Part shown: one piece after another, positions 9,135 through 63,400 of the stretch | Numbering within the stretch: the first letter of the stretch is position 1 | Layout: each line of letters begins with the position of its first letter | From: Phytoseiulus persimilis | Taxonomy: Eukaryota > Arthropoda > Arachnida > Mesostigmata > Phytoseiidae | Reading direction: 5' to 3' | DNA: 64,000 nt | Assembly: GCA_037576195.1 (NCBI GenBank) | Contig: CM075101.1 | Coordinates: forward strand, 23,374,001 to 23,438,000 | Made by a program: the position numbers and the translations under genes | The notes under the pieces: model-generated | The model's input: the letters and a program-made list of their open reading frames with translations, nothing else | Databases searched by the model: none | What the model was told of the DNA's origin: nothing

Positions 9135-11599
9135 TAGAGCCTGGAAGTCCAGGCAAAATGCCATATATGCCTGAAAATGCCTATTTCGGGGTTTGCCTCA
9201 ACATCTTGCCTATTTCTGTTTCTCACTAGGCATTTTGCCTATTTTCATGTTTTTCTCGTTGCGTTGCGCTGGCTCGACGTTCCGAGGAAGGGCCACGGCG
9301 TCAACCGGCCCTCGCCGTCAGCTAGGCCATAGCGTCAACCAAGCCTTGGGGGCATCAGGAGCCATAACCTAATCTCACCGAATCCCCCGCATAATGACGA
9401 ACGCGCTGGCTGTCGATCCGCTCACTCGCCCAAGCCGTGACCTAACCTCACCCAATCTCCGATTGACGCCGCGGCGCAGTTAACGCGTGTCTCCGGGGAA
9501 TGAGCCAAAAGGATACCAAGATCAAGGCCATATTTTCTTTTGAGAGCCGACTTTCGGTTCACATGTGTATCGAATGATTCCGGATTCGTTTGTGACAGAG
9601 CTTTGCGATTCAGCCCCGCAGCATCCTCACATTGTTGCTTCCAGAATTGGCAGTTGTCGAGGAACCGAAAACTGGAGCTCTCGAATGTTAGCGCATCGTT
9701 GCGGTGATAGAGCGGGTGTGATAGGTGCACGACAGAGTCACTTTCAATGCTGCCCAACACACACGTGGAGCAATAACAGAAAGGACCTGCCACGACAGCG
9801 GCACTCGTTAGGTGATACACTTGATTCGCTCGAATCAGTCAATGCTCATTTTCGTTCTCAATCTTGACACTGATTCCTCAACACCTAGTGCGCAACCCAG
9901 TGCGATTTTACTGGCGTGGTTGATGTTGTGACGATGCCGAAGCAAGCGAAGAGCCTGAGAAGCAGATTGCAGCGATACGTCGAGGAGTTCGGGAGCGAAG
10001 CGTTTATGACCGATGGAAAGGTGTTGACTTGTAAGTTGTGTGAAAAAAAAGTGAACAATGAGAAAAAATATTACGTCCAGCAACACGTCGAAAGCGCTGG
10101 ACACAAGAACCAGACGCAACGCCGTTCAGCGAGTATTCCTAACACGTGCTTGATCTCGAATTTTCCCGAGATATCGATCAGGGAGAGCGTGTTCAACATG
10201 GACCTCTGTACGATGCTCGTTGAATCGAATATACCGCTCTACAAAACTCACGATCCGTCCTTCCGTAAATTTCTGCAAAAGTATTGTAAGAATGAGGTTC
10301 CCGACCACACAACGCTGCGCAACCGTTACTTGAGATAGCTGTATGATGCCACCATAGGGAAGATCCGGCACGCTGTCGGAAACAATCGAATTTGGATCTC
10401 AGTTGATGAGACAACCGATGTAAGGGGTCGGTTTGTTGTGAACACGATTGTTGGTTGTATGCCACCAGAGCGATCCTCTAGCCCCTTCCTGTTATCTTCG
10501 GCTGTACAGGAGCACACCAACCACGCAAGCATCGCTCATACCTTCACAAACTCGCTGACGTCGTTATGGCCCGATGGTTTCAGGCATGATAACGTGATGC
10601 TCTTCGTTACCGATGCTGCACCCTATATGAAAAAGGCGGCTCGGGGTCTGAATGTGTTATTTCCCAATATGGTCCACATAACTTGTGTCGCTCACGGAGC
10701 GCATAGAGTATCCGAACAAATTCGCGACTCCTTCCCGATGGTCGACAAACTGGTTGCGAAAGTGAAAAAAATATTTGTGAAGGCCCCGTCGCGAATCCGT
10801 TTCTTTCAAAATATTGCACCCAATGTGCCGCTTCCGCCAGAGCCCGTTGTGACGCGGTGGGGCACATGGCTCTCAGCTGCTCTGTACTACGCCAAGTTTT
10901 TCGATGAGATCAAAAGCGTTGTGACGGCGCTGGATGCCAACGAAGCCGTTAGCATCAAAAGATCACAAGAGCTTATGGGAGAGCGCTCTTTCAAGGCGGA
11001 TCTTATTTACATAGCATCGAATTACTCGACCATTCCAGAATACATTAAAAAGCCAGAATGTACGACTCTTCCGCTCAGAGAAACAATCGAAGTCTTCCAA
11101 GACTTACGGAAATGCATCGACGCTGTCGAAGGAGCCCCAGCACAGTTTATCAAGAACAAAATGAAGCACGTCTTGGAGAATAACACGGGTTGCAAGATCA
11201 TGGTAGAGATAGAGGAAGCGGTGCGAGGAAAAGTCGTTGGCGATGACATTTCGCATCTTTCGGTTGCCGATATCTCATCATTCATGTACGCGCCCTTGGT
11301 CAGCGTAGATGTGGAAAGGTGTTTTTCACGTTATGAGGCACCTCTCTCAGACCGACGGTACGGCCTGGCCACGGAGAATCTCAAATATCAGATTATACCC
11401 TTGTGTAACTCAACTGCGTTCGAATAAAGTTGTTCCGACGCTCTGAAGACCCCCCCCCCCCCCCCTGAGGTTATGCTTCATTCAGATCATTCTGTTTTCA
11501 ACGCCTTTTTTGTCGAACCCAACTGCCTTTTTCCAGTTTTTTGATGTCTTTTTGCCCGCCTTTTCCCGACTTTCTTAGTGCCTGAACTCCCAGGCTCCA
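9135..11599 (+). mobile_element. hAT DNA transposon, nearly complete
   Basis: The left end TAGAGCCTGGAAGTCCAGGC and the reverse complement of the right end, TGGAGCCTGGGAGTTCAGGC, match at 17 of 20 bases. They are flanked by GTGTTTAC (9127-9134) and GTGATTAC (11600-11607), an 8-bp target duplication with one mismatch; 8 bp is diagnostic of hAT. Subterminal repeats occur at both ends: TGCCTATTT/GGCATTTTG near 9165-9255 and GCCTTTTT-like copies near 11505-11570. These are likely transposase-binding sites. A transposase reading frame occupies 9934-11427. A run of about 18 C residues follows it near 11449. The high terminal and duplication identity suggests a fairly recent insertion. Confidence 0.9.
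9934..11427 (+). pseudogene. hAT transposase with one in-frame TAG
   Basis: The ATG at 9934 (context ACGATGCCGAAG) opens a 498-codon frame broken only by TAG at 10336-10338. The frame continues unchanged on both sides. Visible parts are a BED/CGGBP1-like finger (CKLC ... H-x4-H, residues ~30-60) and the CGGBP1-type block (SNIPLYK...FRKFLQKY). The first catalytic Asp lies in ISVDETTD (D158), the second in FVTDAAP. The C-terminal dimerisation segment is VSVDVERCFSRYEAPLSDRR, the usual hAT 'ER.FS' region. With the stop the product would be a 134-residue finger-only protein, so the copy is probably not autonomous unless the stop is read through or is a sequencing error. Frame, motifs and stop are seen directly; loss of function is inferred. 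Confidence 0.88.
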
Positions 11600-16698: not shown

Positions 16699-18236
16699 TC
16701 ATTCATCGATCAGTGGCGGTGCAATCGTTGTCGGATGGATGAATCCGTGTTTGACCGGGTCGAGAATAAGTAGAATAATCGCATAAATAGTGACCGGGAA
16801 AGCAACACAGATTACCATCGCTTGCCTCGAGAGATCTATGGATTCCCACAATTTGAGCGTTTTCGGGAATCTTCGCTGATGATTCAAGTAACGAACTACA
16901 TGGCTATCGGCCTGATAATTTTTGTAAATCCAGCGACGAACCCGCTCCGACTCAACACCCACTCCGTACGAGCACTCACAGACAGCGAAGTAGCCGGCGC
17001 AAAGCATTATCGCATGGGCCCAAGTGGTGATGTGAGGCATTGCGTAGTCGGTCTGATGGTGTCGCGCCATTCCCAGGCCCTCGGAGAGATTGCCAATAAC
17101 GGCGGCAACCCACAGGCAGCACAGCGGACTGAACAAACTATCGGAGTAGTGGACCAGTTTCGATATTGTCGAGTGGCGCACCAGCGCAGAAACATGTGGC
17201 ACCGGTTCCTCCATGATCGCGCGTAACTCGAATTTGATGGCGGCAGCAACTAGCGCGTAGAGCACCATCGTGAACACTGTCGAGCCTACGACAACGAACG
17301 ACTCGAAGTTCCTAGAGAAATAAATCATCAGGAACGTATAGATGGTCCAGTTTTTCGATCCGACGAGATGGACGTTGCGATGGGTGTTTGCGACCTCGTA
17401 AAACCGCAACGAGGCCATCGCGGCCACAGCCGTCATCGATGCCAACACCACAACAATGCAAGTTTTGATGTTCTTCGGTTGCCGGGCACTGAGCGTCCCG
17501 AGGAGGAGATACAGTTTCCCGGTGTGACGATTGAGAACGAGGTGGTTGCTGAGAGCGGCGCCCAGGTTCAGCGTGGTACTCGTCCAGAAAATTGTGGCAT
17601 TCGGCAGAGGACTGATCCACTTGTAGTAGATCGAGGCGAAGTAAAGAGCTATGTGCGCCATGTAGAGCAGTCGGACGATAAAGAGCCAGAACTGAGTGAC
17701 TATGGCGCGGAAGGAGACGAGCGAATATTTGAGTCTCTCATCCGAGGGAATGCCCAATCCGCCGCCGCCGAGAATCTGCACGAGAGTCAAGGCAGTGCGG
17801 AACTCCGGAAGCAGGGGTGGTAGGCCCTGGTTTGAGCTTTCGAACGTCACGTCCTCTATGTTGGGCGTGATAGGAGACATGGGGACCGACGGGTCGACCT
17901 GCCCAGCCGGTATGTCCTCTCCTGGCAATGTGAGACTGAGCTGAGGTTTGGATGGATCATCTTTACGGAGCCTCCGTTTCTTCGAGGACGCTCGTCGCCT
18001 CGGCGCATGGCTCACTTCGGCGGCAGATGGCGACGGTGATTCCGGAGGGGTCGATAGCACTTGTTGGGAAGGTTCACTCGATCGCTGCTGATCATCAGGC
18101 TCGGTTATTTCTATCTGAGTTTCGGTCGGAGGATCCCTGGAGCAAAACGATATCGTGATAAATATCCGTCGAGGCCTCGAAATCAAGTGATTCGACTAAC
18201 AAGCGGAGGAGGCGCAGCAGCCCGAAACTCACATTT
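16699..18236 (-). CDS. Gustatory-receptor-like seven-transmembrane protein
   Basis: The main exon 16699-18136 encodes 478 residues. An acidic/Ser-Pro/Arg-rich cytoplasmic-type N-terminus of about 130 residues is followed by seven hydrophobic segments. They lie around FWLFIVRLLYMAHIALYFASI, FWTSTTLNLGAAL, TCIVVVLASMTAVAAM, VVVGSTVFTMVLYALVAA, PLCCLWVAAVIG, HAIMLCAGYFAV and VICVAFPVTIYAIILLIL. This one-long-exon, seven-helix layout with a hydrophobic final helix and short tail fits arthropod gustatory receptors; the canonical TYxxxxxQF motif is at best degenerate. The frame upstream of 18136 is entered by an acceptor (TTTTGCTCCAG). A GTGAGT donor at 18227-18232 precedes it by a 96-bp intron. 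Joining creates ATG across the junction (AT|G), giving MDPPTETQ... and 479 residues. The 5' exon itself has an in-frame stop and no ATG. Ligand unknown. Confidence 0.72.
18137..18232 (-). other. 96-bp intron splitting the start codon
   Basis: GTGAGT at the 5' end and TTTTGCTCCAG at the 3' end on the minus strand. Exon 1 ends CAAAT and exon 2 starts GGATCC, so the first ATG of the open frame is assembled only by splicing. Confidence 0.6.
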
Positions 18237-44639: not shown

Positions 44640-51869
<7,230 letters not shown>

Positions 51870-52532: not shown

Positions 52533-55194
52533 ATGACTTCAAAGTGGGGGATCGTCTCTAGGAATGCTTTGACGCTCGTTCTCTGCGGAGCACTTGCTGC
52601 CGTGATTACATTCGTGGTTTTAAAATATTCGCCAGTATTCAGAGACTCGAGACCACATATCGTCGTCGTCCTCGCGGACGACTTGGTGAGTTGGAATCTG
52701 AGGATGTTTCCTTGTTTGGTGGATTCGAAATGAAGGGAATGGGGACTGATTGACGACCATGTCCGTTTTTGCTCCAAAAGTCCCGTTCGATCATGTTGGG
52801 TGCAAAACATCCCATGAGTGGACAGAGCTCAAGCTGAATCGATGTGCCGCGTCACGTTTGTTTGTCACAAACTCTACCAGAGCACGTTTTCAGGGTTTCG
52901 ACGATGTTTCGTTCCATGGAAATGAACAGATCCCTACGCCCAATTTGGATGCGATGGCAGCGGACGGTGTCATCCTCAACAGGCACTACGCTGCCATGTC
53001 CGGCACACCGTCCCGGGGCGCTTTCTTCACGGCAAAGCTGCCTCTTCGCATCGGTATCTAGAGCATAGATCAAAGCCGGACAATGATGTGACGGAAGACT
53101 CGGGCAGGGCCCCGTGGGAATAATTCTTCTCTAAACGAGAGCTGTTCTTAATCGCTCAGGCTTGAATGAAGCACCGGTACTCAAGGGAGTTTACGGGAGC
53201 GGATTGTCCCTGAAACACAAATTGCTGCCAGCGTACATGCGTGATCTTGGATATGAGACTCACTTGATAGGCAGAGTACGTTCTCTACAATGAACCCGTT
53301 CGCAGTATGAGCTCAGACCAACCGCTAAGAGCCGCGTACCGGTAGGTTGCGCTCGAAAATCAGAGACTGATATCCTTGAAACTCGGTGTTGCAGTGGAGT
53401 CTGGGTTTCTACAAGCAGAGTTTACTGCCAACGAGTCGAGGATTCGATACTCATTACGGCCCTTATTCGGACTCAGGAAGCTACAGCAGTCATCTTTCAT
53501 ACGAGGTCAAATGAATTCGTTTTGCCGAGCACGTTATCGATAGGTCCTGATGGCCGAGGCTCATCAGACACTTACTTCGTGTAATAGACCACGACCATTT
53601 GATTCAGGAGGAATGGCGGCCATACAACGTCCCGCCGGGCTACGATCTGCACCTGAACGGAGAACCTGCTTTCAACGGGTTCAGTACCTACATAACGGAT
53701 CTGTACGACCTGCGCTTCAGCACGATCGTGCACCGAAGACGCAAGCCGCTGTTCATTGTTTTCTCGCACATGACCCCACACGGAGCGTCTCCCGGGCCTC
53801 TCCATCAGCCTTCGCCTCTCTACGATTCGGGGTCCAAGTTCGACAACATCCAAGACAAAGATCGAAAATCGTACGCAAGTATGCCGATCCATATCAGCTC
53901 GTCAACTCCTTGAATCAACCTAGCTCTTCGGTGGGTTCTGCTCATGCTCCCTCCCAAAAACTTCCCACTGATCTCTTCCAGAAATGGTGGATTCATTGGA
54001 CGACTCGTTCAGCCGGATGGTCGACGTCTTGCGCAAGAACAAGATCCTGTCCGAAACAGTGATCCTTTTCAGTTCGGATAACGGGGGCACCACCTTCCGG
54101 GATCCCGACTTCAAAACGGGAGCGTCCAACTGGCCGCTGCGAGGTCAAAAAAACACCCAATGGGAGGGCGGCGTTCGAGTTGCCAGCTTCATATGGAGCA
54201 GCCTCATCAGAAAACCCTACGTCAGTGACAAACTTTATCACTTTGTGGATTGGCTGGCCACCTTCTACAAGCTTGGAGGTGAGCTTCGTCGCCTCTAGAG
54301 ATGGAATTTCGAGAGTCCTGTACCGACACATCAGGCCAGCGAGAATTCGAAGGGTCCTTCGAGGCGGGAACCGAAGCCGGACTTTTTGCAGGTGGCAAAG
54401 TCAGTAATCTCAAGGACATCGATGGCTACAACGTTTGGGATTCCATCGCGGAAAGGAATACAACTTCTCCCCGACAGAAGATACTCCTTGCGTATGATCG
54501 AGACAACACAGACGACAGTCCTGGTTTCGCAGCCATCGTGGGGAAATATAAATATGTTTCCGGCGCATGGAAGGAGCGATCTCAGACAAACCACTACGCG
54601 CCCGCAGGCCTAAGGCGGACCACCAATTTTCAGAATCTTGAGCGCCTGCGGAAAGAATCCAGCGTTGCTCGGGCGCTCAAAGCCGTTGGGCGAGACGGAC
54701 CGGAGGCACACGAAAACTGGAGGGAGAAAGCTAGGATCAAATGCTACTGGGGTGCGGATCTGAGATGCAACGACATGAGTTGTGAAAGAATGATGCAAAC
54801 ATTCACCGGGGTCACTGAGAACACCGAAGTCAAGGTGACACCATACAACATGACGCATGAATGCGATTTCAAACATGATTCGTGTCTCTTCAACCTTGAG
54901 GACGATCCCTGCGAGACAACGAATATCGCAACTGAAAACAGGCAGATTCGGGATGATATCGCAAGTTACATCCTGAACAAGTTCGAGCCCGTCGAGTCCA
55001 CTGCCAAAGTCGTGTATAATGAGTGCTTCGATAGGAATTCGAACCCTGCGAATCACGATCCGCCCGTCTGGAAACCATGGCTCAATGGTTGCGACAACCT
55101 CCTCGGCGAGGTGTGTTTGACAGGTGCGCTGGGGTTCGCGCAAACCGCGCTCAGTCCAGTCTGTCCTCCAGGAGGCAATCTCGTGGACGGATGA
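52533..55194 (+). CDS. Arylsulfatase B-like pseudoenzyme (formylglycine site lost)
   Basis: Seven exons, 52533-52685, 52894-53053, 53160-53275, 53395-53505, 53608-53878, 53982-54278 and 54335-55194, join in phases 0,1,0,0,1,1 and give 655 residues. An N-terminal hydrophobic segment (ALTLVLCGALAAVITFVVL) acts as signal or type II anchor. Sulfatase landmarks are [24 protein letters not shown] and NWPLRGQK...WEGGVR. The signature C-x-P-S-R, whose Cys becomes formylglycine, reads SGTPSR: Gly88 replaces Cys. The GKWHLG motif reads GRWSLG (Arg143, Ser145 for Lys and His). These three residues are essential in ARSB-type sulfatases, so it should not hydrolyse sulfate esters. The reading frame, splice sites and many surface cysteines are intact, arguing for a maintained pseudoenzyme rather than a decayed gene. 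It sits head-to-tail with an intact paralogue. Confidence 0.92.
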
Positions 55195-55209
55195 AGATTT
55201 TTGTTGTGC

Positions 55210-55215
55210 AATAAA
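55210..55215 (+). promoter_or_regulatory. Polyadenylation signal of the first sulfatase gene
   Basis: AATAAA 16 bases after the stop codon. Confidence 0.65.
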
Positions 55216-55456
55216 CCCGAGAAGCGGGAGCCTTGCGAAAATGACCGCTCATGTGAATTACTTGTAGTCTTGGAAGCATCTGTCCGCGATTACTGGCAGC
55301 TCAGGCGAGGATAAGTTGTTCCACTCTCTCAATGAGCACGAAATATCGTACGTCAAAATGTGGAAGTCTCCGCTGAGAGCGAGGCCATTTTATGTTTTGA
55401 CTCCTCGCAGACAAACTCCACAAAAACGCAGAAAGGTGGCGTGAACTCTCCATAGG

Positions 55457-58400
55457 ATGGATGCGGTCGGTACCGGGGTCCAGCCCGGGCTCGAATCGAA
55501 TGTTTCCAAGGTTCCGTGGTGTCGCAGAGCCTCGTTCAAAAAACTCGTAGTCGCTCTCGCATTTCTGGTTGTGATCACAATCGCCGTCATTATCCTGGTT
55601 TTCTTCTTCTGGAAGAAACAGCGCGCGCCGGACGTAATACTTTTCATCGTGGACGATATGGTAAGCCTCTCCTCAGTCGGCACTCTCAATCAGGAAAGTC
55701 CAGACTACTCGGAACATCAATGACTCGATGAGTTTCAAAAATTTCGGCTATTCTGCAGTGAACTCGGCGCTGAACGCAACCTCATCGTTCTCTCGAGTTC
55801 ATCCCAGCTCCAAGTGCAGAGAAGCTGCCTGCGTCTCGAGGCATGTGTTCGTTCTGCAACGAAACTAGCCCGCGCCGACAGTCATAAACTTTAATGCACG
55901 AAACAGCGGAGCAGAGGTTGATCGCGTGCCGATTCAAAAGGCTTTTAAGGCTGATGCTGTCAGCGAGTTTCTTATTTAGATCTTTGAACAGTGTGACCCG
56001 TTTTCACTACCTTGTGCCGAACCAAAGCGCGTCGCCCACCTTTCCTGTGAGACTCCGGCCGACAGTTTCAATCCGCCAGCTCAAGTTCTGCTGTCCACCA
56101 GCTGTGAATCGCGCACAGCACTCTCGTTCGCAGAGCACTCGGACCAGCCAGAGCGAGAATTCTGTACGCCGACAGACCGAGTGTAAGCGGGCCGACTTTG
56201 GTCAGCCATAGGCTCTACGTGACGTGATGCTCGAAAGTAATCCGAACGTCCTAGAGCTAATTAATATAGCGCTCTTCTGCCGTTTTTCTGGGTTGACCGC
56301 GGACACGTTCTCCCGTCGATGTAGGCACCGGATGCGTATCTACCGGATCGATGATGATTCACCTCGGTCGGGAGCGATATCGATCACGTCCCTGCAGGGC
56401 CATGTCGTCTGGATGCTCCGAAGCAGAAGCATCAGTTAGCAGCGATGGCTTCCATTAGCGCGATAGTATTGTTTGGAATACATGGACTCTGTAATACAAG
56501 TATGAGCTGTGACACACACACAGATCAGTGCTCGTAGCGAGAGATCCAATCCTTCAAGGGCGGTCCGTTGCAATCGAGGGCAGATCAAAACTATGACGAA
56601 CGCGAAGTTTCTCAAATTTGACTCCTCAGGGCTGGTCAGACGTTTCCTTCCACGCTAACGGACAGATACCAACTCCGAATATCGACGCCATGTGTTCGGA
56701 CGCCGTTCTCCTGAACTCTCACTACGTTCAGCCCACGTGCACTCCATCGAGAGCGGCTTTACTGACGGGAAAATATCCCATAAAATTAGGTTTGTGTTCA
56801 AGAGTTCCCCTGTGTTCCGTTTGAGGATCCGAATCGCGATGCCACCTGTTTTGGAAGCGCGATCTCAGCGGTCAAAGCTCATGTTCCTCGATCAGTTTCC
56901 CTGAGCTCTTGACATACAGCGTCATCACCCAGATATTTGAAAGCTCCGAGCAGAGTTGCAGGAATACGAACGATATTCTCCCCACAGGGCTTCAAGAGTA
57001 CGTCATTGAGGCGGGAAGGAGCGAGGCTCTTAACTCGTCGCATAAGCTTCTCCCGGAGTATTTGAGAGAGCTCGGCTACGCGACACATCTGATCGGAAAA
57101 GTACGGGAACGAGCGGCGTACTCGCAAACTCAGCGGGGGAGATCGGAAGCGCATAACGGTCAAAATTCGTTTGTATTCCAGTGGCACTTGGGATTCTATT
57201 CGGAAGAATACCTGCCCCAGAACAGAGGTTTCGACTCTTTCTACGGTTATTACAATGGCGCCGGCTCCTACTACAACCACACCGTTACGGATGTGAATAA
57301 GCTTTACTGGAAGAATTATTCGCAGAACTGTTCAGAGATGGAGCGAAAACGCTCGAGCACGACTGACACACCACACACTTGTGTGCAGGCAAGCGGCCGG
57401 ACAGGCTACGACTGGCATTTGGACAATCAGATCGACAGGAGCGCCGAGGGGAAATACGCAACGGATATCATCACTCAAAGAGCCAAGGATCTGATAAAAT
57501 TCAGAGAGCCGGAGAAACCGATGTTTTTGATGATTTCCCATATGGCACCGCATGGAGGAGATCAAGGCAAACTATACGAGGTCGATGAGCGATGGGTGCA
57601 AGATCCCGCAATCGAGCACATCAAGCACAGGGGTCGGAAAGCGTATGCCGGTGAGACGCGAAAACTGATTGATTCAAGTCATGATTTGAGCAAGATGCGA
57701 TGATTTCTCCCAGGGAACGCTTCAAGAATTCCTGATCTCAGGAATGGTACGAGCCTTGGACGACGCATTCGGTCAAACAGTGGCCGCTCTCGACGAGGCG
57801 AACATGCTGGGCAACGTAGTGATTCTGTTCTCGTCGGACAACGGTGGATCGAGCGTTCGCGACGAGGTCTTCGCCACCGGGGCCTCTAACTGGCCTCTAC
57901 GTGGACAGAAATTCTCAATGTGGGATGGTGGCGTCCGGGCGGCCAGTTTTCTCTGGAGTCCTCTGCTCAAATCGCAGCGCTACATCAACAGACATCTTTA
58001 TCACATCACTGATTGGCTGCCAACTTTCTACAAGCTTGCAGGTAGAGTGGTTCCTCCTCAGATCCTCGCTGAAGCCTGGTCGTTGAAGCCCGGAGTAAGA
58101 AAACGTCATCATTCAGGTGGAAAAGCGAAATTGCCGGATGATCTCGATGGATTCGACATCTGGGAATCTATAAGCCGCAACGGGGACTCGCCGCGCAAAA
58201 ATATCCTGATCAACTACGATACCGGTGGAACCGAGAACTTCGCGGTGCGTCGAGGGAAGTTCAAGTTGATTCATGGCAAGCCTCCAATCCAAATTCGACC
58301 GTGGTACAACTCTTGGTACGCAGCAGCTGGAGGCACGATGGATGACTTCATGAGGCTTCAAAAAGCGATGAAAGGATCCGTGGCTTACGGTGTCCTGCGG

Positions 58401-58823
58401 AAGCAACCCAGTTTCGAAGAGCGCCGCAACGATTGGCGCGAGGCGGGCAAAGTAAAGTGTAAAATCAATAGCGGGATGGCCGACAGTCCACGAGGATTGG
58501 AATACTACGAGTACACGGTGGACGAGATGCAGAACGCTTCCACCGTCAAGGGAGGAATGTTGTGCCGGGATTCGGACGAACAGCCGTGTCTCTTCGATTT
58601 GCACGACGATCCATGCGAACTGAGACAGTACACGGGGCCAGATCGTGATCGAGTCATCGAAGAGCTCTCGGAAATAGCGGGAGAGTACCTCGGAATCGCG
58701 GAGCCCGCGCTAACGCCCTGGGTCCACCGGAGAGCTCCAGCGGAAGAAGATGCAGATCCGGGGAGATTCTCCGGAGCCTGGATGCCTTGGGTTACTCTTA
58801 ACAACACGAATCGAGCTCCATGA
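55457..58823 (+). CDS. Arylsulfatase B-like enzyme with intact active-site motifs
   Basis: Seven exons, 55457-55660, 56630-56789, 56988-57100, 57182-57292, 57389-57650, 57742-58041 and 58117-58823, give 618 residues with exactly the phases of the upstream paralogue; exons 2 and 4 have identical lengths (160 and 111). Two introns (57293-57388, 96 bp; 58042-58116, 75 bp) are multiples of three without stops, so simple ORF calling reads through them. I place them by GT-AG sites and the paralogue's structure. A strong hydrophobic anchor ([20 protein letters not shown]...) follows a 28-residue basic N-terminus, suggesting a type II membrane protein. Active-site motifs are intact: VDDMGWSD, CTPSR (Cys105), GKWHLG, SHMAPHG, SSDNGG and LRGQK. 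ARSB removes 4-sulfate from N-acetylgalactosamine in dermatan and chondroitin sulfate; the exact substrate here is unknown. Confidence 0.93.
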
Positions 58824-60436: not shown

Positions 60437-63400
60437 TGATTTCGTTCAGGAAAGATAGCTATGGTAACTCACCTCATTTTCATGGATGTTTCCTCTCCCG
60501 AGGACCTGTGAAGTAGAGTCGGAATTCAGAATGTGTCTCAAGGAGAGTGTGCCATCCAAGCAAACACTTCCCTTGGAGAGGAAGTAGGATGACCTCAGGG
60601 TGAAACCGCATTCCAATAACTCACGAGTCTCTAGAACTGGCTACTTGACCTCGGCCACAGTTCAACCAGGGTGGGAGCCACGACTTCCACAAAAACGTTC
60701 AACTCCAACTCGGAGATCATTTGCGCCGCATCCGTTCCTCGCTTCACTCTCATGCCCCAACGGTGGGCGCAGATTATTAGCAATCGAGTCCTCGTTCTCT
60801 CTCCTCCGATCGAAAATCAGACTCTTTACCCTTGAGTCACCCTCGGAGTCAGCTGATCCGCACAAGGTGTTGCCACCACCCGCCTCAGCAGCGGAAATCT
60901 CGAGCTGCTGGTGTCGGTGGTGGACCGAGTCAAAAGCATCTTTCGTTCGTGATCGATGGCCGATGGAAAAACTCAGCGGCAGCAGCAGCAGCAGGAGTCT
61001 ACTCGGGATTCATTTTATGATTTACTAGAGCTTCTGTGGGCTCACATGTGGAGGGGGGAGTTTGCATGACTCCAGCTCCGTTTCAGCTCCACACTTCCGA
61101 GCTCGGCTCTTGCGGACCGCTCGGAGGTCTGAATCCAGGACTCGAGTGAGGAACGTAGCTCGCGCCTCGATTCAGAAGGAACCGCTGTGAGTCGCTGAGA
61201 GCTGCTGCTAGGTCACCACGATCGTGGGCGTTCATGAATTCTCAGCGGGTGCGTGGATCGATGGCTGCCCGTTGAGCTTCATTCGATAACGATCCGACGA
61301 CACCTGACTTCCGTTTTGTTTGCGCAACTGTTGGGTCCAAGCAGGTCCAGCCCAGAAACGCTGGAATCCGGACCTTCCTTGCTCTCCGTCGTTTCCATCT
61401 TCCGCGGTCTCGCTGTTTTCCTTGAAGCGGCCGCAGTCTGACCAGCCAAGTGTTTGGCGTGGTTGGGTGCGAAACAGTTACCGTTACGAGCCAATCATTG
61501 CAAATGGGTCTGCCAGCTGCCTCTCACTCGCTCTCCGGGTCGGTTGGTCGAGCGCTCGGCCAGTTGGACGGACAGACGCCCGGTTGGTTTGCCGCCCGGC
61601 TCTTTGCCCGCCCGCTAGCGAGACGGTCACTCGACTTCTGGACTGTGTTGGCTCTTGCGGGAACGGCCCACCGGAGTGTAGGGAATCGTGCAAGATGAGA
61701 ACGACAGACGAGGTGAACTCTCCTCTCAGACAGAGCTACTACAACTGCTGCTACTACACATTTATATGCCGTATAACACCGACAGCGAGAAGGGAGCGGG
61801 CGAGTAAGCAAACAGATAGACAAAGGAGGGCACTGGGCTGACGTCCAACGAGAACAACAAACAACCAACTAGCGCGTTTCTCCTGCCCAGGACGCTCTGT
61901 TTCATAGCTGACGACGAGGAGCTGCATGGTTTGTTGCTCCACGTTAGCGATCTGCGGCGAGTTCCCGACGCCGTTTCTCTCGATGCGGTGCTCTCCGAAA
62001 CTTTGGCGTGCTCGCTCGTCCCCAGGATCCTTTTTCCCTTCGAACCCGGCTGGGACAACCTCGGCCCATGCCGTTTCCGTGCACTGTAAAGTTTCCCACA
62101 GCTCCGCCGGATTATTACTTATCGCCAGTCATGTCTCCCGGGGCAGTAGGACGACGTTCCACTCAATTCGGGCATTCTGCTATCGACACCGACAGGAGAT
62201 TGGCTGTCAACACACACACACACGCGGAGATCGCTTCCTCAGAGGAGAACGGCGAGAGAGAGAGAATGACGGAACAACAAGGGACCACTGACGACAGTGA
62301 CGCTGCCGACGACGGCCTTCTGCGAGTCAAGAGTCCGGGCGCTAACGAAAACTGTTCTGCGGTGCGCAGCGACAAACAAGTCGGACGAGCGATATTGACG
62401 ATTCCGGAGCGTGCGAGCGGAATGCCAACGGTCTGCTCGACCACTAACAACACTCGTTGTGAATCGAGATCAGGCCGAGTGACCTGTGCGAGTTGCCCGA
62501 TAACGACTGTCCCACGTCATCATTCCTGTATCGACTTTGTTTCCGGTGTTGTCCCTCACGAGTTCCGCGGAGACTCCGGCCCTCGTTCACGGCGATTGGA
62601 GCCCCGACTGCGGAACCTCACAACAAACATCGAGAATCATATTCACATTGATCCCACCGATCGGACAACACTTCCTCCCAAACAGTGTCCCGAAACTCGG
62701 TTCAGCGTTAGCCGTTGCGCGGACCGACTCAAAGAGTGCCCGAACTCCGATCCGCCTGCTAACTTCCCGGGAACCCGCTCCATCACACGGCAGACATTAT
62801 CAGTGGAGTGATGGAAGCTTTCAAGTGAACTAAATGGCGTTCGACTCCTTGGTTGCGTCATTGTTATGCTAAGATCCGATGCCCGATCCCCGTCCCTTCG
62901 ACGGAGACAGCCGGTATCTCAAGATTGTCCAGATAGCTCTTCTAGACTCTGTCTGACTGACTCGCTCTCCCGACCCTGTTTTCGTTTAGGCACTCTCGCG
63001 AACAGGTCCTTCTCCCGGCAATACCCGATCCGATTCACCATTCCCGCGCGGTGATGGAAGCGCTTCTCTTCCAACTTTTCCTCACATCTCGAACTTGATG
63101 CTCTCGAGGCGGATCAAGGGTTTGATGAATATCGCTTCCAGCTGAGACACTCGATAATATTTCCCATCACTCCGACAACGGAGGGGAGAATACAGTTCAC
63201 ACGGGACCGATGCAGGAGGAATCTGTTCTCCCCGTTTTGGAGTCGAGCTCTCGAGTCAAGCGGCAGGGAGAATCTCGAGAAGAGGCTCGGGCTCTTCTCC
63301 GACGCTGTACCTAGAGAGACGGAGGGAGAGTTATCTGTAACATAAATAATAAAAGTATTCCATCATCAGGGCCGACTTCGGGGATCTCATCGCCCAAATT

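Follow-up and report, generated by a model that had tools for sequence, protein, structure and literature searches.

The described system nearest to the locus analysed here is arylsulfatase B (ARSB; N-acetylgalactosamine-4-sulfatase, family S1, PDB 1fsu), in the context of a sulfatase family where formylglycine conversion needs the motif [CS]-x-P-x-R (PMC5066984, PMC7279497), with the formylglycine-generating enzyme (FGE) converting the Cys within CxPxR (PMC7279497; this and the other papers are cited from excerpts). Retained dead paralogues are already known for other enzymes, including heparanase and sperm aminopeptidases. Heparanase-2 is a non-catalytic paralogue with high affinity for heparan sulfate that inhibits heparanase-1 (PMC12406646), and the Drosophila S-LAP proteins form an expanded family under purifying selection in which some members are devoid of active-site residues (PMC3078892). 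Within family S1 itself, nine SulfAtlas members from Lentisphaerae and Planctomycetes have been suggested to be inactive (PMC5066984), and the glucosinolate sulfatases of Plutella provide a case of tandem arylsulfatase-like duplicates with changed function (PMC6501874).

The window, that is, the whole 64,000-nucleotide stretch of DNA that was analysed, corresponds to C1:23374001-23438000 of the Phytoseiulus persimilis assembly (181 Mb, 127 contigs) and has a GC content of 51.3%. It carries two ARSB-like genes lying head to tail on the + strand, the upstream one (U) at 52533-55194 and the downstream one (D) at 55457-58823, for which models of 636 and 618 codons, respectively, were built by hand. 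Spliced protein-to-DNA alignment of the D protein with the U locus, and of the U protein with the D locus, then recovered, in each locus, the whole of exons 2-6 together with the donor of exon 1 and the acceptor of exon 7; the outer ends deviated, the local alignment stopping early and a spurious 17-base exon preceding U exon 1. The features of the two genes are as follows.

52533-52685, + strand: U exon 1, with start ATG, N-terminal hydrophobic segment and metal-site Asp-Asp (hand model and alignment, the latter for the donor)
52894-53053, + strand: U exon 2, with Gly88 (GGC 53002-53004) at the formylglycine Cys position (hand model and alignment)
53160-53275, + strand: U exon 3, ending with Arg143 in place of ARSB Lys145 (hand model and alignment)
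53395-53505, + strand: U exon 4, beginning Trp-Ser145, with Ser in place of ARSB His147 (hand model and alignment)
53608-53878, + strand: U exon 5, His242 equivalent kept; the acceptor here is the splice site placed with least certainty, 53588 and 53611 being alternatives
53982-54278, + strand: U exon 6, equivalents of Asp300, Asn301 and Lys318 kept (hand model and alignment)
54392-55194, + strand: U exon 7, C-terminal part and stop (hand model and alignment, the latter for the acceptor)
55210-55215, + strand: AATAAA, likely polyadenylation signal of U, starting 16 bases past its stop
55457-55660, + strand: D exon 1, with N-terminal hydrophobic segment and metal-site Asp-Asp (hand model and alignment, the latter for the donor)
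56630-56789, + strand: D exon 2, with Cys105 (TGC 56738-56740) in TCTPSR (hand model and alignment)
56988-57100, + strand: D exon 3, ending with the Lys of GKWHLG (hand model and alignment)
57182-57292, + strand: D exon 4, beginning WHLG (hand model and alignment)
57389-57650, + strand: D exon 5 (hand model and alignment)
57742-58041, + strand: D exon 6 (hand model and alignment)
58117-58823, + strand: D exon 7 and stop (hand model and alignment, the latter for the acceptor)

The span of 52533-58823 given in a preliminary description of this DNA proved exact, running from the ATG of U, which begins at 52533, to the final stop of D, which ends at 58823. The common architecture that it reported was also recovered, with seven exons per gene, the same six intron phases (end phases 0,1,0,0,1,1 in both) and two exons of identical length (exon 2, 160/160 nt; exon 4, 111/111 nt). 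GT-AG borders were found at 12/12 introns, and the sole stop in each frame is the terminal one. The intact frame of 655 codons attributed to U is open, but its length was not reproduced, the model having 636 codons, with 635-637 for the three open exon 4/5 splice-site combinations in the range enumerated. A six-exon version of D, in which 57182-57650 forms one long exon 4, is open as well (650 aa); the seven-exon version was kept because U is open only with an intron at this place (again in the range enumerated) and because the alignment of the U protein chose seven exons. The N-terminal segments of both proteins are strongly hydrophobic (maximum mean hydropathy over 19 residues of 2.7 in U and 3.5 in D), an indication that they may be membrane-anchored in the secretory pathway.

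Outside U and D no sulfatase signal was found in the window (scores 38-55). Other open frames in it include one of 362 codons at 10339-11424 (+) matching DUF659 (E 5.3e-15), a domain known from hAT-type transposons; this frame is probably a mobile-element remnant. A frame at 48023-48712 (-) contains collagen triple-helix repeats (E 2.8e-17), and those at 16702-18195 (-; 498 codons) and 61948-62808 (+; 287 codons) had no Pfam or PDB match at E 0.001.

Human ARSB (PDB 1fsu) was the best-scoring solved chain for both proteins (E 7.5e-70 for U and 7.8e-93 for D), and the Pfam Sulfatase model PF00884 matched U over nearly its full length (positions 1-300 of 301; E 2.3e-43). Active sites were compared at ten ARSB residues (human numbering Asp53, Asp54, Cys91, Arg95, Lys145, His147, His242, Asp300, Asn301 and Lys318), a list that agrees with the tables of PMC4014121 and PMC7404199. 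D carries 10/10 of these, together with the Sulfatase domain and the CxPxR motif. U keeps seven (Asp53, Asp54, Arg95, His242, Asp300, Asn301 and Lys318), four of them calcium ligands, and the alternative list with Pro93 instead of Asn301 (PMC5159873) gives an identical 7/10. The three substitutions first noticed from the sequence were borne out by alignment to human ARSB: Cys91 is replaced by Gly88, Lys145 by Arg143 (AGA 53273-53275) and His147 by Ser145 (AGT 53398-53400), and their reversion to Cys, Lys and His would take at least one, one and two base changes, respectively, in three exons.

The loss of the Cys carries most weight. The corresponding motif of U, G-T-P-S-R, fails the pattern needed for formylglycine conversion, and with neither Cys nor Ser at this position formylglycine should not form and sulfatase activity should be lost, so that absence of this activity from U can be firmly inferred. 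The preliminary description had counted three catalytic losses; the first is decisive, but Lys145 to Arg and His147 to Ser would not by themselves prove inactivity, since the Lys/His positions are occupied by Tyr/Thr in a phosphonate monoester hydrolase belonging to this superfamily (table of PMC4014121). Active copies can be matured in this genome, as an FGE-family gene is present at C1:30.78M. Viewed as a candidate pseudoenzyme, U has kept the family fold, as judged by the sequence profile, and has lost an essential catalytic residue. It retains 74 of the 94 columns that are invariant in five active-type proteins, with D's codon at only 27 of these 74, and its catalytic losses are not enriched relative to changes at the other invariant columns (3/10 vs 17/84, p 0.44).

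The assembly was searched with the Pfam model and with the U and D proteins, and the best candidates were scored, so that the counts are lower bounds. At least five further ARSB-like genes were found, giving at least seven with U and D.

C1:24.90M: L019, alignment-based model, all ten residues
C1:43.51M: L021, alignment-based model, all ten residues
C3:29.69M: L022, alignment-based model, all ten residues
C3:37.29M: L047, alignment-based model, all ten residues
C36:6000-13500: L020, the C36 copy, modelled exons C36:10642-8199 on the minus strand, start further upstream

The models of L019, L021, L022 and L047 are uncertain at their C-terminal ends; taken together with D, these genes show 0/50 catalytic positions changed. 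Four additional PF00884 loci (C3:11.7M, C2:15.8M, C1:24.4M and C3:3.5M) had been excluded before counting as members of other subfamilies, aligning to U or D at 69-158, with 550-908 for the five ARSB-like loci.

The C36 copy, which lay out of sight of a reader restricted to the window, is a second and more degraded ARSB-like paralogue that has lost 8/10 residues (Asp53 to Gly, Asp54 to Ala, Cys91 to Ser, Lys145 to Thr, His242 to Gly, Asp300 to Thr, Asn301 to Thr and Lys318 to Arg). Its motif reads S-S-A-S-R, meaning that the Pro of the Cys motif is gone as well. The modelled frame runs for 532 codons without a stop and contains seven GT-AG introns, some of which, towards the C-terminus, are peculiar to this copy; a stop lies two codons beyond the modelled frame. 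The losses cluster at catalytic sites (8/10 vs 17/84 other invariant columns, p 0.0003), and this copy evolves faster than D in four relative-rate tests (p 0.0001 to 0.004). Active-site loss is seen, then, at two stages, with 3/10 residues changed and the calcium ligands intact in U, and 8/10 changed and all four ligands replaced in C36. The Pfam Sulfatase model scores U at 149.1 bits and C36 at 139.1 bits, far above the cut-off of 25, which implies that domain-based sulfatase gene counts overstate the number of enzymes.

Contig C36 is exactly 25,000 bases long, the GC of the stretch is 50-51%, and a repeat of the contig is dispersed on C1-C4, tying it to the chromosomes of the assembly. An origin by contamination or as a haplotig is disfavoured by the matching GC, by the shared dispersed repeat and by the absence of a near-identical second copy of the region among the matches listed (best 40 of 189 candidates), and C36 is here taken, rather than proven, to belong to the same genome as the window. 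The repeat at L020:5580-5880 occurs many times on C1 to C4, in several cases as two closely spaced copies on opposite strands, and resembles an inverted-repeat element. No further sulfatase signal was detected in C36 1-6000 and 13400-23399, where scores (40-50) were at control level.

In a tree built from 499 of 702 columns, U, D and the C36 copy form one clade with support of 100/99. Within it U is grouped weakly with C36 (66/65), and the AU test rejects neither of the alternative pairings, U+D (p-AU 0.17) and D+C36 (0.35); privately shared residues are about as numerous in each pair (30 for U/C36, 31 for U/D and 30 for D/C36). The intron splitting GK from WHLG is found only in U and D among the seven modelled genes and argues for their pairing. 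Another, at alignment column 291 in phase 1, is common to U, D and C36 and absent from the other four, L022 and L047 having an intron two columns away in phase 0. The view of U and D as tandem duplicates therefore stands with respect to duplication, as indicated by gene structure, but not with respect to their being closest relatives, for either one may have its nearest relative in the C36 copy. At the 78 fourfold sites that they share, U and D are identical in 26.9% of cases, random expectation being 25.7%; identity this close to chance points to synonymous saturation and hence to an old duplication. Catalysis would have been lost in a single event, if U and C36 inherited the loss from an ancestor of both, or else in two separate events.

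No stops, frameshifts or broken splice sites, the usual signs of a pseudogene, are present in U, and the preserved frame had been taken to suggest a retained role. Selection was assessed with a branch-specific codon model (403 ungapped columns of 702) under two of the three topologies, U+C36 and U+D. On the U branch, the Gly88 lineage for which the preliminary description had proposed a dN/dS calculation, omega = 1 was rejected (2dlnL 22.0 and 24.3 for the two topologies), an omega of 0.1 already costing 4.7 and 4.3. The same value was rejected on the C36 branch (2dlnL 46.8 and 45.5), and on the D branch only at p 0.036 and 0.035 (2dlnL 4.4 and 4.5). The U and C36 branch lengths hit the preset bound in free fits; this and the weak rejection for D illustrate how far saturation limits what can be measured. 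In simulations of neutral decay starting from the 618-codon D sequence, under the assumptions that indels amount to 10% of substitutions and that two thirds of the indels shift the frame, frames in which 3/10 catalytic codons had changed carried a mean of 8.3 stops, and only 0.9% were stop-free and 0.5% free of both stops and frameshifts (1000 runs each). When decay was continued until 8/10 catalytic codons had changed, the frame was intact in 0/300. Neutral decay would thus be a poor fit as an account of U and C36, and maintenance of U by selection as a protein is favoured.

The omega estimates average the whole branch, before and after the catalytic loss, which means that the loss is undated and possibly recent; the argument from the preserved frame has gained constraint on the U branch, but not a date for the loss. 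U could accordingly be a young pseudogene whose catalytic residues were lost too recently for lesions to have accumulated in the frame, a reading that we consider unlikely. The purifying selection on the U branch could wholly predate the loss, which, if recent, would also yield the results of the relative-rate tests between U and D with four outgroups (p 0.65, 0.57, 0.10 and 0.049). The end branch of U in the protein tree is longer than that of D (1.00 vs 0.56) and, with the marginal test at p 0.049, makes some relaxation possible, and the residue changes are few, only three. These involve, however, three catalytic codons and at least four base changes, a state that neutral evolution reached with an intact frame in the roughly 0.5% of runs mentioned above. 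Invariant columns near the lost Cys, a region picked post hoc, are changed in 6/13 cases vs 14/81 (p 0.029), an excess that would have needed time to arise, and the poly(A) signal and every splice site of U are kept.

Far less probable is that U works as an enzyme with altered chemistry, for example phosphodiesterase-like, relying on the metal site, which is kept, and on an adjacent Ser or Thr. Its four metal ligands, Arg95, His242 and Lys318 are in place, and the phosphonate monoester hydrolase of the superfamily likewise does without the Lys/His pair (PMC4014121). The nucleophile position of U is nevertheless occupied by Gly, the flanking Ser87 and Thr89 would lie out of register, and the Pfam phosphodiesterase model matches D (E 9.4e-10) but not U at E 0.001. 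In addition, the phosphonate monoester hydrolase keeps formylglycine, which weakens it as a precedent. Lastly, that Gly88, Arg143 and Ser145 are assembly or sequencing artefacts is barely credible even with the bases resting on one assembly, since at least four base differences spread over three exons cannot all be accounted for by a single sequencing error, additional U-specific changes occur at invariant columns nearby, and the remainder of the frame and splice sites is clean.

In summary, the best explanation, and one that we hold with reasonable though not high confidence, is that U is a retained pseudo-sulfatase; the broader proposition that it is a retained non-catalytic protein appears likely from the sequence evidence. 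Both the U and C36 proteins probably owe their retention to some function other than sulfate cleavage, given that a catalytic residue was lost yet the frame is intact, and that a second, more degraded relative exists. In the scenario proposed for this retained pseudo-sulfatase, an ancient duplication of an ARSB-like gene would have produced a daughter, D, that retained every residue of a formylglycine-dependent sulfatase, and another, U, that lost the Cys that FGE must oxidise and hence catalysis, its domain, metal ligands and reading frame being held under purifying selection. The U protein would still fold in the secretory pathway, presumably with its N-terminal hydrophobic segment as anchor, and might act by binding without turnover, its ligand being a sulfated glycan or a partner (D, for example), much like heparanase-2 beside heparanase-1.

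A specific glycan-binding or partner role of this kind, proposed by analogy, is put forward only tentatively. Binding without turnover is chemically plausible, since in U the calcium ligands are intact, as are His242 and Lys318, which contact the sulfate. The C36 copy, having lost all four metal ligands, is not expected to share this binding mode, which speaks against the clade as a whole being simple substrate decoys; any function common to both proteins would rest on surface contacts and not on the pocket. It is somewhat more doubtful still that these copies represent a clade of at least two animal pseudo-sulfatases kept by selection to bind sulfated glycans without cleaving them or to regulate D, a counterpart of heparanase-2.

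Pseudoenzymes and the sulfatase family are both well known. Among the open-licence papers listed, none on an animal pseudo-sulfatase appeared, nor any title or abstract opening on a sulfatase pseudoenzyme, and the word 'sulfatase' is absent from the main text of PMC6902594; an animal pseudo-sulfatase with an active-type tandem sister appears to be undescribed as far as that search reached. Two dead copies together with an apparently active D would offer a natural series on what the sulfatase domain does without catalysis.

Compared with arylsulfatase B, with which U and D have the catalytic domain in common, U is without the formylglycine Cys, Lys145 and His147, and both proteins have at the N-terminus a strongly hydrophobic stretch resembling a membrane anchor. 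The SulfAtlas sequences are, like U, S1 members missing an active-site residue, but they are bacterial, the residue lost is a positively charged one, and the excerpt of the source mentions neither an active sister nor a constraint test. The Plutella glucosinolate sulfatases resemble U and D in being tandem arthropod duplicates and differ from U in being active enzymes. In S-LAP, as in U, active-site residues are lost and purifying selection is seen (for U as an average over the whole branch, before and after the loss), although those proteins are M17 peptidases and have been shown to be major sperm constituents. Finally, heparanase-2 is, as U appears to be, a retained and catalytically inactive paralogue of a glycosaminoglycan-degrading enzyme, the difference being that it belongs to an endoglycosidase family and that the function of HPSE2 has been measured, whereas U is known here from its sequence.
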